Source of the DNA: Bacteroidales bacterium
GTDB lineage: Bacteria > Bacteroidota > Bacteroidia > Bacteroidales > JAIOZK01
DNA length: 64,000 nucleotides
NCBI GenBank assembly: GCA_021740625.1
Contig: JAIOZK010000018.1
Coordinates: forward strand, 1-64,000
Reading direction: 5' to 3'
The notes under the pieces were generated by a model, which was not told where the DNA came from, did no database searches, and worked only from the letters and a program-made list of their open reading frames with translations. Positions 25,913 through 63,188 of the stretch are shown here, one piece after another. Made by a program: the position numbers and the translations under genes. Positions within the stretch are counted from its first letter, which is position 1. Each line of letters begins with the position of its first letter.

Positions 25913-26593
25913 CTAACCAAACAAATACACCAGCACCACCACAAACAGCAATGCAGGTATCATATTGAGTATTTTCAGTTTCTTTATTTCCAGGATATTG
26001 ATGCCCAGGCCAATCAACAAAATACCACCCACAGCGGTGAGCTCGCTTACGATCACATCCTCGAAATATTCACCGATGGAAGCGGCAAAGAGTGTAATAC
26101 CGCCCTGGTAAAGGAACAGTGGTATAACAGAAAAAGCAACCCCAATCCCCATGGTTGATGCAAGCGCAATTGAGGATACACCGTCCATCATGGATTTGAT
26201 CAGCAACAGGTTCGGGTCATTGCGCAATCCTTCGTCAATCGCACCGATGATGGTAACCGACCCCATGCAGTAAAGCAAAAAGGCGGTGATCATGCCTTCT
26301 GAGAACTTTTCATTGCCACCCAGTTTAAATCTTCGTTTCAGGTATTCCGAAAAACGGTTCATGTATTTTTCAAGTCCGATCAGTTCTCCCGTGATCGATC
26401 CCAGAATCAGACTCAGGATCAGCAGGAAAACATGGGAAGTTTCCAGTGCCATAGAAACTCCGAGGAATAAAGTGAACAAGCCGATCGCCTGAAATACAAT
26501 TATTATAAATCTTTGAGGCAACCTTTTGTTTAAAAACAGGCCTACAATAGTACCTGTTATGATCGCAATCACGTTTACAATGGTTCCTGTCAT
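25913..26593 (-). CDS. DUF554 (YdfK-like) membrane protein
   Basis: 226 residues from the preferred start MTGTIVNVIAIITGTIVGL, which is the conserved beginning of DUF554; an in-frame ATG 12 codons earlier (26629) is possible but adds non-conserved residues. About seven membrane helices are seen, with the family features ILGSITGELIGLEKYMNRF, FLLYCMGSVTIIGAIDEGL and MMDGVSSIALASTMGIGVAFS. The function is unknown; a transporter role is often guessed. It stands alone, divergent from the Asp-box protein gene. Confidence 0.88.
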   Translation of the reverse strand: MTGTIVNVIAIITGTIVGLFLNKRLPQRFIIIVFQAIGLFTLFLGVSMALETSHVFLLILSLILGSITGELIGLEKYMNRFSEYLKRRFKLGGNEKFSEGMITAFLLYCMGSVTIIGAIDEGLRNDPNLLLIKSMMDGVSSIALASTMGIGVAFSVIPLFLYQGGITLFAASIGEYFEDVIVSELTAVGGILLIGLGINILEIKKLKILNMIPALLFVVVLVYLFG

Positions 26594-56277: not shown

Positions 56278-56493
56278 ATGAAACTGCTTAGAAAAGTATT
56301 CAACTTTTACGTTGAAGGATTCAGGAACATGGATAAACTGGGCATCAAACTCTGGACCATCATCCTGATCAAGCTTTTCATCATGTTTGCCGTCCTCCGC
56401 CTGATCTTCTTTCCCAATTTCTTAAACTCCAAATTTGAATCCGACCAGGAAAAAAGCGATTACGTCATTGAACAATTAACAAAACCCAAGTAA
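56278..56493 (+). CDS. DUF4492 small membrane protein
   Basis: 71 residues: an amphipathic start FNFYVEGFRNMDKLGIKLW, one membrane helix (IILIKLFIMFAVLRLIFFP), and a charged tail. The DUF4492 family is repeatedly found just before cydA in Bacteroidota and some Campylobacterota, and the cydA gene starts 4 bases after its stop, so it belongs to the cytochrome bd operon. Its function is unknown; assembly or structural roles are possible. Confidence 0.85.
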   Translation: MKLLRKVFNFYVEGFRNMDKLGIKLWTIILIKLFIMFAVLRLIFFPNFLNSKFESDQEKSDYVIEQLTKPK

Positions 56494-56497
56494 CAAT

Positions 56498-58036
56498 ATG
56501 GAGAACATTGACATTTCATTAGTCGATTGGTCGCGAGCGCAATTTGCCCTGACGGCATTTTACCACTGGTTATTTGTGCCCCTGACCCTCGGCCTGTCGT
56601 TTATCATCGCCATTATGGAGACCTTATACGTCAGGACGGGAAATCCCGAATGGAAAAGAATCACCAAGTTCTGGATGATACTGTTCGGGATCAATTTTGC
56701 CATTGGCGTGGCAACCGGTATCATCCTGGAATTTGAGTTCGGGACCAACTGGTCGAATTATTCCTGGTTCGTAGGGGATATTTTCGGTGCTCCCCTGGCT
56801 GTGGAAGGCATCATGGCCTTTTTCCTTGAATCCACTTTTATTGCTGTGATGTTTTTTGGCTGGAATAAAGTCAGTAAAAAATTCCATCTTATGTCGACCT
56901 GGCTCGTAGCTTTCGGAGCCAACCTTTCAGCTTTGTGGATCCTGGTAGCCAATGCATGGATGCAAAATCCTGTGGGCATGCAATTCAACCCGGATACCGC
57001 CCGGAATGAAATGCAGAATTTCTGGGAGGTGCTCTTTTCCCCCACAGCCATCAGCAAATTCCTCCATACGATAACTTCAGGATATGTGCTGGCTGCCATC
57101 TTCGTAATCGGTATCAGCGCCTGGTTCCTTTTGAAAAAAAGACATCAGTTATTTGCCCAGAGAAGCATTGTTGTGGCTGCAGTATTCGGATTGCTTTCAG
57201 CAGCATTTCTGACCTTGTCGGGTGATTCATCAGCACGGGAAGTTGCAAGAGTTCAACCCATGAAGTTTGCAGCCATGGAAGGTCTTTATGATGGACAGAC
57301 CAATGCCCCCCTGGTTGCCATCGGATTTTTAGAAAAACCAACCCCACCCGGCATGGAGCGGGAATTCGCATTTAAACTGGAAATACCCAATATGCTTTCG
57401 TATATGGCATTTCTTTCCCCCAACGCTTTCGTTCCCGGCATCAAGGACCTGGTCAGGGGCAATCCTGATCAGGACATTGAATCCTATTTTTCCAAGATGG
57501 AAAGGGGGAAGAAAGCGCAAAAGGCACTGGCTGACTATAAAAAATATAAGAAGGAAGGCAATGAGGAAAAAAGTGCCCGGGCTTTACAAGTTTTTGAAAA
57601 GAATTATGACAGTTTTGGATTCGGCTATTATGATGATCCGCAAAAACTCATCCCCAACGTACCCCTTAGTTTTTATTCCTTCCATGCAATGGTGATCCTG
57701 GGTGTGCATTTCGGGATTGTATTCCTGCTTTCACTCATATTCTTATACAACAAAAGTCTGCCAAGACAGAGATGGTTCCTGTGGATTTCATTTATTACCA
57801 TTCCCTTTGCCTACCTGGCAACCATGCTTGGATGGACTGTTGCCGAATTGGGCCGTCAGCCATGGGTGATCCAGGATCTTATGCCTACTTTGTCTGCAGT
57901 TTCGAATATTTCGAGTCGCAATGTGCAAATAACATTCTGGCTGTTTGCCTTCATTTTCACAGCATTGCTGATTGCAGAATTCTTTATCATGCGTCGTCAA
58001 ATTCTTAAAGGACCCAAAGAAGAAGGAGGAAATTAA
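56498..58036 (+). CDS. cydA: Cytochrome bd ubiquinol oxidase subunit I
   Basis: 512 residues, about nine helices. LVDWSRAQFALTAFYHWLFVPLTLGLSF opens the protein (heme b595 His), GRQPWVIQDLMPT is the invariant block, and a long insert between KLEIPNMLSYMAFLSPNAFVPGIKDL and VPLSFYSFHAM makes a long quinol-binding Q-loop as in the E. coli type. It oxidises menaquinol and reduces oxygen without proton pumping, usually at low oxygen. The cydB start follows 1 base after its stop, with a good AGGAGG site inside its last codons. Confidence 0.96.
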   Translation: MENIDISLVDWSRAQFALTAFYHWLFVPLTLGLSFIIAIMETLYVRTGNPEWKRITKFWMILFGINFAIGVATGIILEFEFGTNWSNYSWFVGDIFGAPLAVEGIMAFFLESTFIAVMFFGWNKVSKKFHLMSTWLVAFGANLSALWILVANAWMQNPVGMQFNPDTARNEMQNFWEVLFSPTAISKFLHTITSGYVLAAIFVIGISAWFLLKKRHQLFAQRSIVVAAVFGLLSAAFLTLSGDSSAREVARVQPMKFAAMEGLYDGQTNAPLVAIGFLEKPTPPGMEREFAFKLEIPNMLSYMAFLSPNAFVPGIKDLVRGNPDQDIESYFSKMERGKKAQKALADYKKYKKEGNEEKSARALQVFEKNYDSFGFGYYDDPQKLIPNVPLSFYSFHAMVILGVHFGIVFLLSLIFLYNKSLPRQRWFLWISFITIPFAYLATMLGWTVAELGRQPWVIQDLMPTLSAVSNISSRNVQITFWLFAFIFTALLIAEFFIMRRQILKGPKEEGGN

Positions 58037-58037
58037 A

Positions 58038-59189
58038 ATGTTTGAAAATTTATCACATCTCGCATTGCAGCAATACTGGTGGATCATCATATCCCTGCTT
58101 GCTGGTATACTTGTCTTCCTGATGTTTGTTCAGGGAGGACAAACCCTGATCTTCACGCTTGGTAAATCAAAATTACAGCGCAACATGCTGGTAAACTCCC
58201 TGGGAAGAAAATGGGAATTCACATTTACCACGCTCGTTACTTTTGGTGGTGCATTCTTTGCCTCTTTCCCATTGTTTTACGCTACCAGTTTCGGTGGGGC
58301 TTACTGGGTATGGATCATCATATTGTTTGCCTTCATCATACAGGCAGTTTCCTATGAATTTCGTTCAAAACCAAACAACATTTTCGGTGCAAGAACCTAT
58401 GAAGGCTTCCTGTTTGTGAATGGCCTCCTCGGAACCATTTTGATCGGAACGGCTGTAGCTACTTTTTTTACCGGATCCAAATTTCTGGTAAACGAATACA
58501 ACCAATCCACCTGGCAAACTGCCTGGGGCGGACTGGAACTGGCATTTGATTTCGGAAGATATGCAACTTTCATCAACCTTTCGCTGGGACTGGCCGTATT
58601 TTTCCTTGCCCGTTCCCTGGCATTGTTGTATTTTATGAACAACATCGATGATGATGAGCTCATGGGATGGTCGAAGAAGAAACTCTGGAACAATGCCATT
58701 CCTTTCGTATTTTTCTTTTTGTTCTTCCTCGTGAATATCCTGCTAAGAAAAGGATTTGCCTATGATCCGGAAACCATGGTCGTTTCCATGGAAGCATACA
58801 AATACCTGCACAACATCCTCGACATGCCCATCAATACGATCATACTGCTTGTGGGAGTTGTCCTGGTGCTTTATGGTATCATCAGATCCATGCTGGTCAG
58901 ATGGTCATACGGCATCTGGTATGCAGGCCTCGGAACCATCTTAACTGTATTTGCCCTTTTCATCCTGGCCGGTTTTAACAATACGGCATTTTATCCTTCG
59001 GTTTATGACCTGCAAAGCTCCCTGACCATCAGGAACGCTTCCTCAAGTCATTATACTTTAACAGCCATGAGCTATGTTTCATTGATGGTGCCCTTTGTGA
59101 TCGCCTATATCTGGTGGGCCTGGAAATCGATCAACAACAAAAAGATCGATGCTGCCGAAATGCAGGACGAAAGCGGACATAATTATTAA
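58038..59189 (+). CDS. cydB: Cytochrome bd ubiquinol oxidase subunit II
   Basis: 383 residues from ATG 58038 (MFENLSHLALQQYWWIIISLLAG). The frame is open 22 codons further upstream, but these lie inside cydA, while AGGAGG sits 7 bases before the ATG. About eight or nine helices; features are FVQGGQTLIFTLGKSKLQRNMLVNSLGRKWEFTFTTLVTFGGAFFASFP and the RSMLVRWSYGIWYAGLGT loop. It supports the heme core in CydA. A 40-codon reading frame begins 19 bases after its stop. Confidence 0.95.
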   Translation: MFENLSHLALQQYWWIIISLLAGILVFLMFVQGGQTLIFTLGKSKLQRNMLVNSLGRKWEFTFTTLVTFGGAFFASFPLFYATSFGGAYWVWIIILFAFIIQAVSYEFRSKPNNIFGARTYEGFLFVNGLLGTILIGTAVATFFTGSKFLVNEYNQSTWQTAWGGLELAFDFGRYATFINLSLGLAVFFLARSLALLYFMNNIDDDELMGWSKKKLWNNAIPFVFFFLFFLVNILLRKGFAYDPETMVVSMEAYKYLHNILDMPINTIILLVGVVLVLYGIIRSMLVRWSYGIWYAGLGTILTVFALFILAGFNNTAFYPSVYDLQSSLTIRNASSSHYTLTAMSYVSLMVPFVIAYIWWAWKSINNKKIDAAEMQDESGHNY

Positions 59190-59208: not shown

Positions 59209-59331
59209 ATGTTTGAACAAATATTATGGTTATTATCCTGGCCGGTTTTTATCTTTATAACCTACCGGCTGGTGCTTGTTGCAGTAAAAAAGCTGGAAAA
59301 AAAGATAGCCCTTGAAAAGAAAGCAGATTGA
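59209..59331 (+). CDS. 40-residue single-helix protein, candidate CydX-like cytochrome bd subunit
   Basis: ATG 59209 to TGA 59329-59331. The product starts MFEQILWLLSWPVFIF, continues with a hydrophobic stretch to about residue 26 and ends in a basic tail KKLEKKIALEKKAD. Size, one N-terminal Trp-containing helix, charged cytoplasmic end, and position right after cydB all equal CydX of E. coli, although no clear sequence similarity can be claimed. The long Q-loop of this CydA fits an enzyme that uses such a subunit. The spacing to cydB is 19 bases, and a terminator hairpin follows. Confidence 0.65.
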   Translation: MFEQILWLLSWPVFIFITYRLVLVAVKKLEKKIALEKKAD

Positions 59332-59367: not shown

Positions 59368-59394
59368 AACGCGGTCTTAGTCAACGATCGCGTT
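59368..59394 (+). terminator. Terminator-like hairpin after the cyd operon
   Basis: Arms AACGCGGTC and GATCGCGTT (one G-U pair) with a 9-base loop, followed by TTAAATTTT. Confidence 0.6.
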
Positions 59395-59516: not shown

Positions 59517-62500
59517 ATGAAAAAAGTATTTTTATTCCTGATGCTTGGAATAATTAGTATTTCCGGCATCTATGCACAAAACGAACCTGCACAGGCCGAT
59601 ACTGCTGATTATCCTTACTGGATAGAGATGATGCAGGATCCTGAAGCAAATTATTACGAAACAGTCAAAGCTTTCGAAACCTACTGGGAAGGAAGAGAGA
59701 TTACCAAGGGAAGCGGCTGGAAGCCTTTCAAAAGATGGGAATATTCCATGCGGTTCCACATCCGTCCCGACGGAAGTCGCTTACCACAAGACCATGACAT
59801 CAAAGCATATAATGATTTCAAAGCCAGCAATCCACCAAGCCGCGATTTCACAGGCAACTGGATCAGCCTGGGCCCCTTTGAATTGCCCCAGGGTGACCGG
59901 GGGTACAAAGGCCTTGGCCGCCTGAATGCCATTGCCTTTCATCCAACTGATTCCGATATCATTTATGTAGGAGCCCCGCAGGGTGGCTGCTGGAAGACAA
60001 CGGATGGCGGTTCCACCTGGGAAAGCAACACGGATGCACTCCCTTCACTCGGTGTTTCCGCGATTATCGTGGATTATAACAACCCCGACAATATATACAT
60101 CGGAACCGGTGATCGCGATGCAGGCGATGCTGCAGGCGTGGGTGTATACAAAAGTGATGATGCCGGAGGAACCTGGGTGGAACACAACAACGGAATGGGC
60201 AACAAGATCGTTGGCAGATTGTTGCAACACCCAAGCGATCCGAACAATATGCTCGCTGCAACAAGCGGTGGAATCTATAAAACAACAGATGCAGGTGACA
60301 ATTGGGTTTTGAAGCAAGGCGGTAATTTCAAGGAAATCGTTTTCAAACCCGGCAACCCCAATGTTGTTTATGCCGCCAGTGGCGGATCATTTTATAAATC
60401 ATCCAACAACGGTGAAAGCTGGAGCCAGGTCAGCAACGGACTTCCGGGTGGTTACCGGGGCGTCATCGCTGTAACCCCCGACAACCCCGATGTTGTATAT
60501 TTCCTGATCACCAATAGCGATTCTTTTAAAGGATTATACCGTTCGTCGAACTCCGGAAACTCCTTTACCGAAAAATCAACCTCACCCAATATCATGAGCT
60601 GGGGATGCAATGGCGGAAGCGGCGGACAGGCCTGGTACGACCTGGATATCGCAGCCGACCCAAATGATGAAGACATTATTTATGCCGGTGGCGTAAACTG
60701 CTTCAAATCATCCAATGGTGGTGTTACATGGCAAATCAACTCCCACTGGTGGGGGGATTGTAACGTACCATCCGTGCATGCCGACCTGCATGTGCTGGAA
60801 TGGAATCCCGTTGACGGAAGATTGTACGCCGGCAATGATGGTGGCATTTACTGGACCGATAATGGCGGTTCCACCTGGATTGAGATCACCGAAGGACTTG
60901 CCATCGGGCAGGTTTATAAGATCGGTCAGAGTGCCACGGTCAGAGATATGTGCGTGAACGGTTACCAGGACAATGGCTCTTCTACCTACCTCGGAACACA
61001 CTGGCAGAATGTTGGTGGCGGTGACGGCATGGAATGCGCCGTTGACCACGAAGATGCAAATTACAGTTATTATACCCTTTACTATGGATCCATTTACAGG
61101 GTTTACAACAACCAGAGTTCTACCCAGGTGGCCGGCCAGGGAGTGAACGGCATTACCGAATCGGGTGCCTGGATCACACCTTTCTGCCTGCTCCCCGCAA
61201 ATTCGGAAGTGATGTTCGCAGGCTATAAAAATATCTGGCGCTGCGACAACATCAAAAGCGGAAATCCAAGCTGGAAAAAAATCAGCAATAACCTGGGCGG
61301 AAGCAATTCACAAAACCTCAGGGTACTTGAAGCTTCACCGGCCGATGAGAATCTCCTCTATGCCGCACGCTACGATAACAAAATGTTCAGAACGGACAAT
61401 GCACTGGATGGCAATCCTTCCTGGACCGACCTGACCTCCCTGCTGCCGCCGGGTGGCGCCAGCCCGACAGATATAGAGGCACACCCGGAAGATCCCAATA
61501 TTGTATACATTACATATAATTCCAAAGTTTATAAGTCTGTCGACAAAGGTCAGACCTGGGAAGATATCACGGTAAATCTGCCCAGCACAAGTTTAAATAC
61601 AATCGAATATTACAAGAACAGTCCGGACGGCTTATACGTGGGATCAAATGTAGGTATTTTCTACCGTGATAATTCCATGAGTGAATGGATAGAGTTTTCG
61701 GATGGTTTACCCGCTTCCAGCGAAATCACAGAAGTTGAAATCTATTATCATCCTGACAGCGTTGAAAATGATGTGCTGAGGGCCTCAACTTATGGCCGTG
61801 GACTGTGGGAGTCAGAACCCTATTATTATGCTCCCGTAGCTGATTTCTATGCCAGCGAGGATACCATCCCCGTGGGCTGCCCGGTGGATTATTTTGATAA
61901 TTCAACCGGCATTCCCCATTATTACCAATGGACTTTCGAAGGTGCCACACCGGAAACCTCAACGGAAAGGAATCCATCCGATATTGTTTACAATGATGAA
62001 GGAACTTTTAGTGTTACGCTTGAAGTCAGTAATCCTGCCGGTAACGATGTGCTAACAAAAGAAGAATTTATTACTGTAAGCGCCACCGCCCTGCCCAATG
62101 TTGATTTCACTGCAAGTTCCACAGCCGTCTGTGTGGGAGATACCGTTCAGTTCACCGATCAGACACAAAATTGTCCCACCGGCTGGTTGTGGGAATTCGA
62201 TCCCGATGATGTGAACTTCGTGAATGGCTCCAATGAAAACTCCCAGCACCCAGAGCTTGAATTTCCCAATCCGGGTACCTACACGGTTACACTAACTTCT
62301 ACAAACAATGCAGGTAGCAACAGCAAAACAAAAACTGATTATTTAAACAGTGGAGGAGCCATCATTCCTTTTGCCGAAGATTTTGAATCTGCTTCTTTCA
62401 CAGCCCGGGGCTGGACCATTGAGAATGATGATTTCGGCAAAACCTGGACCATTGATACGGTTTCCGGAACAACACCCGGGAACCATGCTGCCTGGATAAA

Positions 62501-63188
62501 CTTCTATAATTACTATAACCTGAACGCAAGAGACAGACTCATCTCTCCGGGACTTGATCTTACTTTAACCGGTTCTTACGACCTGGAATTGAAATTTGAA
62601 CATGCTTATGCCCAGCGTTATAACCAGAAAGATTCTTTGATCATCTATATCAGCCTGGATTGTGGAAACACCTGGGAAAGAATCTGGGGGATGGGACCGG
62701 ATGGAAGCGGTGTTTTTGCAACCGCCCAACCGACTGCAGATTTCTTTGCTCCGGAATCTTCCGCCGACTGGTGTGGCGAAGGTTATGGTACAAATTGCTA
62801 TAGCATTGATATCAATGATTATAAAGGATATTTCGATGTCAAGTTTGCCTTTGAATCTTTCAACCAGTTCGGAAACAACCTTTACCTCGACAATATCGAA
62901 GTGACTTATACAGTTGGGGTCGATGAAGCCAATTTAAATCCCGAAACTGTCCTGATCAGGCCCAATCCATCGGATGGTGCATTCCTGATCACGATTCCCG
63001 AATCGGAACAGGACATGAACATGGAGATCTACGATGCCCTGGGTAATTCAATCATCAAACAAAAACTGCAAACAAGCAGTGGAAAAATTGAGAAGATGAT
63101 TGATCTTGAGAATTATCCCAGCGGGATCTATCTTGTAAAAATATTCAACAAAGAAAATTCCTTCATCAGGAAAGCAGTAATTGAATAA
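59517..63188 (+). CDS. Large T9SS cargo protein: sortilin/BNR-like propeller, two PKD domains, MAM-like domain, type A sorting domain
   Basis: 1223 residues. Signal peptide MKKVFLFLMLGIISISGIYAQ. Residues about 110-750 form a Vps10/BNR-type propeller with many Asp-box units (KTTDGGSTWES, KSDDAGGTWVE, KSSNNGESWSQ, KSVDKGQTWED). Two PKD domains follow (about 770-860 and 861-945; FDNSTGIPHYYQWTFEGA, FTDQTQNCPTGWLWEFD), then a ~180-residue concanavalin/MAM-like unit (FAEDFESASFTARGWTIENDD). The end, VLIRPNPSDGAFLI to SGIYLVKIFNKENSFIRKAVIE, is a T9SS type A signal. It is a surface or secreted adhesin- or glycan-related protein; no catalytic set was recognised. Confidence 0.88.
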   Translation: MKKVFLFLMLGIISISGIYAQNEPAQADTADYPYWIEMMQDPEANYYETVKAFETYWEGREITKGSGWKPFKRWEYSMRFHIRPDGSRLPQDHDIKAYNDFKASNPPSRDFTGNWISLGPFELPQGDRGYKGLGRLNAIAFHPTDSDIIYVGAPQGGCWKTTDGGSTWESNTDALPSLGVSAIIVDYNNPDNIYIGTGDRDAGDAAGVGVYKSDDAGGTWVEHNNGMGNKIVGRLLQHPSDPNNMLAATSGGIYKTTDAGDNWVLKQGGNFKEIVFKPGNPNVVYAASGGSFYKSSNNGESWSQVSNGLPGGYRGVIAVTPDNPDVVYFLITNSDSFKGLYRSSNSGNSFTEKSTSPNIMSWGCNGGSGGQAWYDLDIAADPNDEDIIYAGGVNCFKSSNGGVTWQINSHWWGDCNVPSVHADLHVLEWNPVDGRLYAGNDGGIYWTDNGGSTWIEITEGLAIGQVYKIGQSATVRDMCVNGYQDNGSSTYLGTHWQNVGGGDGMECAVDHEDANYSYYTLYYGSIYRVYNNQSSTQVAGQGVNGITESGAWITPFCLLPANSEVMFAGYKNIWRCDNIKSGNPSWKKISNNLGGSNSQNLRVLEASPADENLLYAARYDNKMFRTDNALDGNPSWTDLTSLLPPGGASPTDIEAHPEDPNIVYITYNSKVYKSVDKGQTWEDITVNLPSTSLNTIEYYKNSPDGLYVGSNVGIFYRDNSMSEWIEFSDGLPASSEITEVEIYYHPDSVENDVLRASTYGRGLWESEPYYYAPVADFYASEDTIPVGCPVDYFDNSTGIPHYYQWTFEGATPETSTERNPSDIVYNDEGTFSVTLEVSNPAGNDVLTKEEFITVSATALPNVDFTASSTAVCVGDTVQFTDQTQNCPTGWLWEFDPDDVNFVNGSNENSQHPELEFPNPGTYTVTLTSTNNAGSNSKTKTDYLNSGGAIIPFAEDFESASFTARGWTIENDDFGKTWTIDTVSGTTPGNHAAWINFYNYYNLNARDRLISPGLDLTLTGSYDLELKFEHAYAQRYNQKDSLIIYISLDCGNTWERIWGMGPDGSGVFATAQPTADFFAPESSADWCGEGYGTNCYSIDINDYKGYFDVKFAFESFNQFGNNLYLDNIEVTYTVGVDEANLNPETVLIRPNPSDGAFLITIPESEQDMNMEIYDALGNSIIKQKLQTSSGKIEKMIDLENYPSGIYLVKIFNKENSFIRKAVIE

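Follow-up and report, generated by a model that had tools for sequence, protein, structure and literature searches.

A putative CydY/CioY-type small subunit gene behind cydB in long-Q cytochrome bd operons of Bacteroidales

Cytochrome bd is reported to underlie the use of nanomolar oxygen by Bacteroides fragilis (PMC4668044). The closest relatives found for the small gene described here are the CydY/CioY proteins of Campylobacterota. CydY was described as a small ORF behind cydB, found in 15 species in a set of 35 long-Q operons lacking cydX (Allen 2014, PMC4325964). The species belonged to the Epsilon- and Deltaproteobacteria, with Desulfurispirillum among those shown, and an unnamed small hydrophobic protein was noted upstream in every CydY operon (Allen 2014). 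The same authors proposed independent origins for CydX and CydY. More recently, the Campylobacter jejuni protein was renamed CioY and described as a translated protein of 34 aa with a conserved tryptophan, proline and tyrosine (Froschauer 2025, PMC11955535). Reciprocal co-immunoprecipitation of CioY and CioA was reported in C. jejuni, and CioY was modelled at the site of CydX (Froschauer 2025). For CydX itself, the structure paper describes contacts with CydA helices 1, 5 and 6 and a C-terminus in the cytoplasm (PMC6853902), unlike the older prediction of a periplasmic C-terminus (Allen 2014). The name CydY has also been used for E. coli YnhF/CydH, a different protein (PMC6853902, PMC8951039).

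The main text of Allen 2014 never uses the word "bacteroidetes", and the open-access literature yielded no report of the peptide in Bacteroidota (subscription papers and preprints lay outside this scope). Here, a 40-codon gene behind cydB of a Bacteroidales bacterium is compared with these systems. With this assignment, CydY/CioY reaches a second phylum besides Campylobacterota, and the question of one or two origins for CydX and CydY is reopened.

The cyd operon and its 40-codon gene

The window (the whole stretch of DNA analysed, 64,000 nucleotides) carries the operon listed in Table 1. The original prediction placed a 40-codon ORF right behind cydB and a DUF4492 gene in front of cydA, giving two small membrane proteins in one operon, and this arrangement is present. 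The ORF reads from an ATG to a stop codon (40 codons plus stop), starts 19 nt after the cydB stop on the same strand and has the product MFEQILWLLSWPVFIFITYRLVLVAVKKLEKKIALEKKAD. The single hydrophobic helix and the charged, KK-rich tail ascribed to it hold, with the correction that it has two tryptophans (W7 and W11) and not one. Modelled alone from its single sequence, the peptide formed one helix over residues 2-39 (AlphaFold2, mean pLDDT 85). No Pfam or NCBIfam model matched it at E up to 10; the window operon thus lacks cydX in the sense that the peptide behind cydB matches no CydX model. The long Q-loop claimed for CydA was borne out, since the region between the same fixed anchors spans 138-142 aa in six CydX-bearing proteobacterial CydA proteins and 82 aa in one Enterococcus CydA. 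The DUF4492 protein is likely of the kind named CydW in Porphyromonas gingivalis.

Table 1. Features of the cyd operon in the window
Feature	Position	Strand	Evidence
DUF4492 protein gene (71 aa)	56278..56493	+	PF14899, E 1.5e-28
cydA, long-Q cytochrome bd subunit I (512 aa)	56498..58036	+	PF01654, E 1.9e-167; Q-region 139 aa
cydB, subunit II (383 aa)	58038..59189	+	PF02322, E 1.1e-63
Putative cydY/cioY-type small subunit gene (40 aa, single helix)	59209..59331	+	ORF, model search, profiles, codon signal
Hairpin and U-rich stretch, possible operon terminator 3' of cydY	59368..59394	+	weak

The hairpin behind the small gene has a 9-bp stem (-11.6 kcal/mol, z -2.4) and was equalled by 7 of 200 shuffles; a consensus terminator scanner listed none, and the hairpin is only a weak candidate for the operon terminator. 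Right after the operon lies a 1223-aa ORF (59517-63188) with a signal-like start and many DGG-x-TW repeats. These repeats we take to be Asp-box-like, and its C-terminal tail presumably resembles Bacteroidota secretion signals.

The original prediction staked the gene on conservation behind cydB in relatives and on a coding signal, and both were found. When cydB was sought in 60 genomes, it was matched in 40, and the sequence that follows cydB was inspected at the 30 best loci: 22, including that of the window, carried a similar short ORF within about 90 nt of cydB, and one further locus carried a short ORF further downstream. A model built from 21 of these peptides (hereafter the Bacteroidota model) was then used for a genome-wide search blind to the position of cydB. 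It returned 59 matches in 58 of the 149 genomes of the order (E up to 0.001), and 55 of the 59 lay downstream of cydB on the same strand, at a median distance of 26 nt from the cydB stop to the match start (three of the 55 at 396-623 nt). Among the 38 matches from genomes outside model building, 34 lay behind cydB by hand count. The four exceptions of the 59 stood at a contig end (G059), in isolation (G219), in a genome with no cydB detected (G278) or as a weak second match (G212).

Across eight pairs of related genomes, pooled pS was 0.75, near saturation of synonymous sites, and pN was 0.21; in the other two reading frames pN/pS was 0.95 and 1.75. Third codon positions held 155 of 292 differences (P about 3e-12, simple binomial). 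The comparison leans somewhat towards the peptide frame, as the genome pairs were aligned at the protein level. W7, W11, P12, I15, Y19 and K27 are kept family-wide; among the 55 Bacteroidota members, W11 is conserved in 49, P12 in all and Y19 in 48. Because of the size of the pN/pS effect and the conserved W-P-I-Y positions, there is little doubt that the ORF is a real gene, under purifying selection in that frame only. That the Bacteroidales peptide is translated and binds CydA is inferred.

Family assignment and distribution

The campylobacterotal comparison covered 16 genomes reached by a 16S pattern, one of which was not campylobacterotal. Seven of the 16 encoded a CydA like that of the window (58-61% identical), and a DUF4492-like protein was found upstream in all seven loci by tblastn. 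In five of these seven genomes, the Bacteroidota model matched a peptide right behind cydB, four of them at E below 1e-5: Sulfurospirillum cavolei (E 1.3e-12), S. diekertiae (3.0e-9), Campylobacter coli (4.0e-7), C. concisus (7.4e-6) and Poseidonibacter, whose E of 0.008 is above the usual 0.001 limit. The other genome-wide matches listed at E up to 1 began at 0.06. C. showae and C. gastrosuis had a weakly matching copy in the same place (0.03 and 0.06); in these two loci (L287, L288) the tryptophan and tyrosine are kept and the proline, invariant in the 55 Bacteroidota copies, is lost. In the nine other genomes, including the C. jejuni isolate G303, CydA was not matched and the peptide had no good match.

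Aligned with hhalign, the Bacteroidota and Campylobacterota peptide profiles reached a probability of 98.5 and a score of 66, with 200 column shuffles scoring at most 24. The C. coli peptide has the length of CioY, 34 aa, and was taken as CioY by this length, its place and its motif, not by comparison with the published letters. On account of the model matches behind cydB, the profile alignment and the length of the C. coli peptide, the window peptide is filed, as judged by sequence likeness, with the CydY/CioY small subunits (CydY as defined by Allen 2014), as their representative in Bacteroidota.

Within the order, CydB was found in 92 of 149 genomes (E below 1e-30). The peptide lay behind cydB in 55 of these and elsewhere in two (G059, G219); the remaining 35 had no match at E 0.001 and no significant match in the cydB-flanking stretch with the HMMER filters off. 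Its lack falls mainly in a group including Bacteroides and Parabacteroides, in line with the published finding of cydW, and of no cydX, cydY or cydZ, in P. gingivalis (PMC4668044). DUF4492 was present in 88 of the 149 genomes and, with the lists compared by hand, in 87 of the 92 with CydB. DUF4492/CydW, encoded at 56278-56493 in the window, is thus kept more widely than CydY, and it may be a second subunit.

Of 148 genomes drawn from the phylum, the listed ones being from other orders or classes, only the window's own genome contained the peptide and DUF4492; CydA was matched in 67. For the 66 others, CydA aligned in at least two pieces in 62, mostly breaking about residues 320-380, and gave a weak match to the first part only in the remaining four; these are read as probable short-Q or distant enzymes. 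In this sample, therefore, DUF4492 and CydY go with long-Q CydA.

The 104-row tree of CydA plus CydB (FastTree) divided the 38 rows labelled CydY-less into one group of 27, containing the B. ovatus and P. distasonis records, and eleven scattered rows, and parsimony on it counted ten changes (gains or losses) of CydY. Because these two records sit beside genomes of the sampled order, the order is taken to be Bacteroidales. The group was less clean in a 72-row tree, where the CydY-bearing row L123 stood among its neighbours. The B. ovatus and P. distasonis plasmid records were labelled CydY-less from gene tables and an ORF scan, not from the model search; both have an opposite-strand gene within 150 nt after cydB. 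A search of plasmids with the consensus CydY query gave no match. The direction of transfer between Bacteroidota and Campylobacterota was considered and set aside, as FastTree nests Campylobacterota inside Bacteroidota and IQ-TREE, on 72 hand-picked rows, makes them sister groups.

A candidate replacement ORF (20-80 aa, TM-like, within 400 nt) was present in seven of the 38 CydY-less loci, with no motif shared by eye, and at L096, counted among the seven, the ORF is cydB with its frame broken; the same scan was positive at 48 of 53 CydY loci. As the 35 genomes showed neither a peptide match nor a shared replacement ORF, the bd enzyme can do without CydY where the peptide is missing. CydA and CydB columns were also searched for changes tracking the loss, defined as a change in the group of 27 and in more than half of the eleven scattered rows, and only CydB 147 (S, mostly to A) qualified. 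The patchy presence of CydY offers a natural test of the function of the small helix.

Two copies lie away from the usual place. In G219, a CydY copy beginning MYWREILWLISWPLMIW... (L302; G219:C112, 19361-19468, minus strand, E 8e-9) stands away from cydAB, and the cydB of this genome is on another contig without a peptide behind it. In G278, a genome 82% complete, a CydY-like ORF (L303; G278:C212, about 25930-26130, plus strand, E 3.5e-5) has opposite-strand neighbours that, judged by eye, resemble heme-copper oxidase and SCO genes.

Proposed role and alternatives

In the favoured reading, with a probability of about 0.8, the peptide is a CydY/CioY family member whose helix clamps CydA, as CydX does, within a CydW(DUF4492)-CydA-CydB-CydY oxidase. 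The operon would yield these four proteins, and CydY would insert as one helix, probably with its N-terminus outside and its KK-rich tail in the cytoplasm. With its W7/W11/I15/Y19 face it would pack against CydA helices 1, 5 and 6, in the groove occupied by CydX in the E. coli enzyme; there it would clamp the heme bundles and aid assembly or stability of the di-heme site. These residues follow an i, i+4, i+8, i+12 pattern, and conservation along the peptide has a helical period with a best angle of 102 degrees (P 0.046 at 100 degrees). Orientation, CydA site and heme-site stabilisation are inferred; the clamp appears likeliest because of the CioA binding of the homologue, the CydX structure, the conserved face and the KK-rich tail. 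Part of the original prediction, a CydX-like small subunit of a long-Q CydAB, thus most likely stands, while membership in the CydX family itself does not.

A PDB sequence search with the window CydB returned five distinct sequences, the best being E. coli bd-I at 83 bits, and one with the peptide profile returned no match; a close Bacteroidota bd structure seems to be lacking there, as far as a match table without organism names can tell. A conserved subunit outside the Pfam and NCBIfam models could be omitted from expression constructs and structures.

Patchy presence, with ten gains or losses while CydAB stays, would also suit an assembly factor or heme-insertion helper that leaves the enzyme. 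This is unlikely, given that CioY co-precipitates with CioA in C. jejuni (PMC11955535). Slightly less probable still is a gate like E. coli CydH/YnhF, in which the helix would occupy another CydA groove (helices 1 and 9) and block one oxygen path. Either groove could accommodate a single helix that has one conserved face; however, CydH is encoded away from the cyd operon and accompanies CydX in E. coli bd-I (PMC6853902, PMC8951039), modelling placed the C. jejuni homologue where CydX sits (PMC11955535), and the window gene is within the operon, closely behind cydB.

That the peptide is a true CydX of the TIGR02106 family, as originally predicted, is very improbable, even though it shares with CydX the place behind cydB of a long-Q CydA, a similar size and the W-x3-W-x18-E spacing. 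None of the 55 Bacteroidota members matched TIGR02106 or NF011333 (E up to 1), and none of seven Campylobacterota members matched the CydX models, which recognised all controls (two CydX and one CbdX from plasmid records). The MWY N-terminus, invariant in six CydX/CbdX sequences, is absent from the window peptide. No Pfam model for CydX or CydZ was matched by the 55 members at E up to 1, with positive controls available for the NCBIfam models only. CydZ (DUF2474, PF10617) was rejected separately: it is not among the nine Pfam families matched by any of the 55 members at that limit, and it partners a short-Q CydA, whereas the window CydA is long-Q.

Against the six CydX/CbdX sequences, the Bacteroidota profile reached a probability of 52.5, far from the 98.5 obtained with CydY. 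Its score of 21.6 is weak; it nevertheless exceeded all of 200 column shuffles (maximum 21.1) and all of 202 natural controls (maximum 16.9), the latter being overlapping membrane-helix windows of CydA and CydB. In the ungapped alignment, W7/W11 fall on CydX W2/W6, and E30 pairs with the acidic residue 25. The Campylobacterota profile scored 17.8 against CydX (probability 18), a score reached by one of 200 shuffles. Profile score and shared spacing together hint at a possible common origin of CydX and CydY. In a broader version, which we offer tentatively and regard as doubtful, CydX and CydY/CioY would both descend from a single ancient small subunit that accompanied long-Q CydA; Bacteroidales would carry an oxidase of four parts, CydW-A-B-Y, and the Bacteroides/Parabacteroides lineage would later have dropped CydY and kept CydW. 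If so, E30 would correspond to Glu25 of E. coli CydX, which is cytoplasmic, and the Bacteroides/Parabacteroides enzymes would be natural long-Q oxidases without a clamp helix.

The ORF is short and belongs to no database family, yet the peptide matches in 58 genomes, the third-position bias and the lack of such a signal in the other two frames make it barely credible that it is spurious or merely a regulatory stretch behind cydB.

Comparison with known systems

Among the systems considered, CydP (NF045611) in an Acinetobacter plasmid record is a small gene directly before cydA and hence a positional counterpart of DUF4492; it does not correspond to the 40-aa peptide. CydS of Geobacillus goes with a short-Q enzyme. 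By description, it resembles the peptide as a single-helix CydA partner at the CydX place (PMC8951039). CydH/YnhF is likewise a small single-helix bd subunit; in contrast to the window gene, its own lies outside the operon and its helix occupies another CydA groove, so that only the name CydY is shared (PMC6853902, PMC8951039).

CydX/CbdX (AppX) of Proteobacteria is alike in operon place, size and long-Q CydA, and in having W-x3-W near the start with an acid 23 residues after the first tryptophan. It differs in that the Bacteroidota peptide lacks a family-model match and the MWY start, and has a conserved WP motif and a basic tail. The fullest likeness is to CydY/CioY of Campylobacterota, which agrees in profile, single helix, conserved tryptophan, proline and tyrosine, place behind cydB, long-Q CydA and the DUF4492-like gene upstream. 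Compared with these, the Bacteroidota peptides usually have two tryptophans and a KK/E tail, and they are missing from a large group of Bacteroidales.
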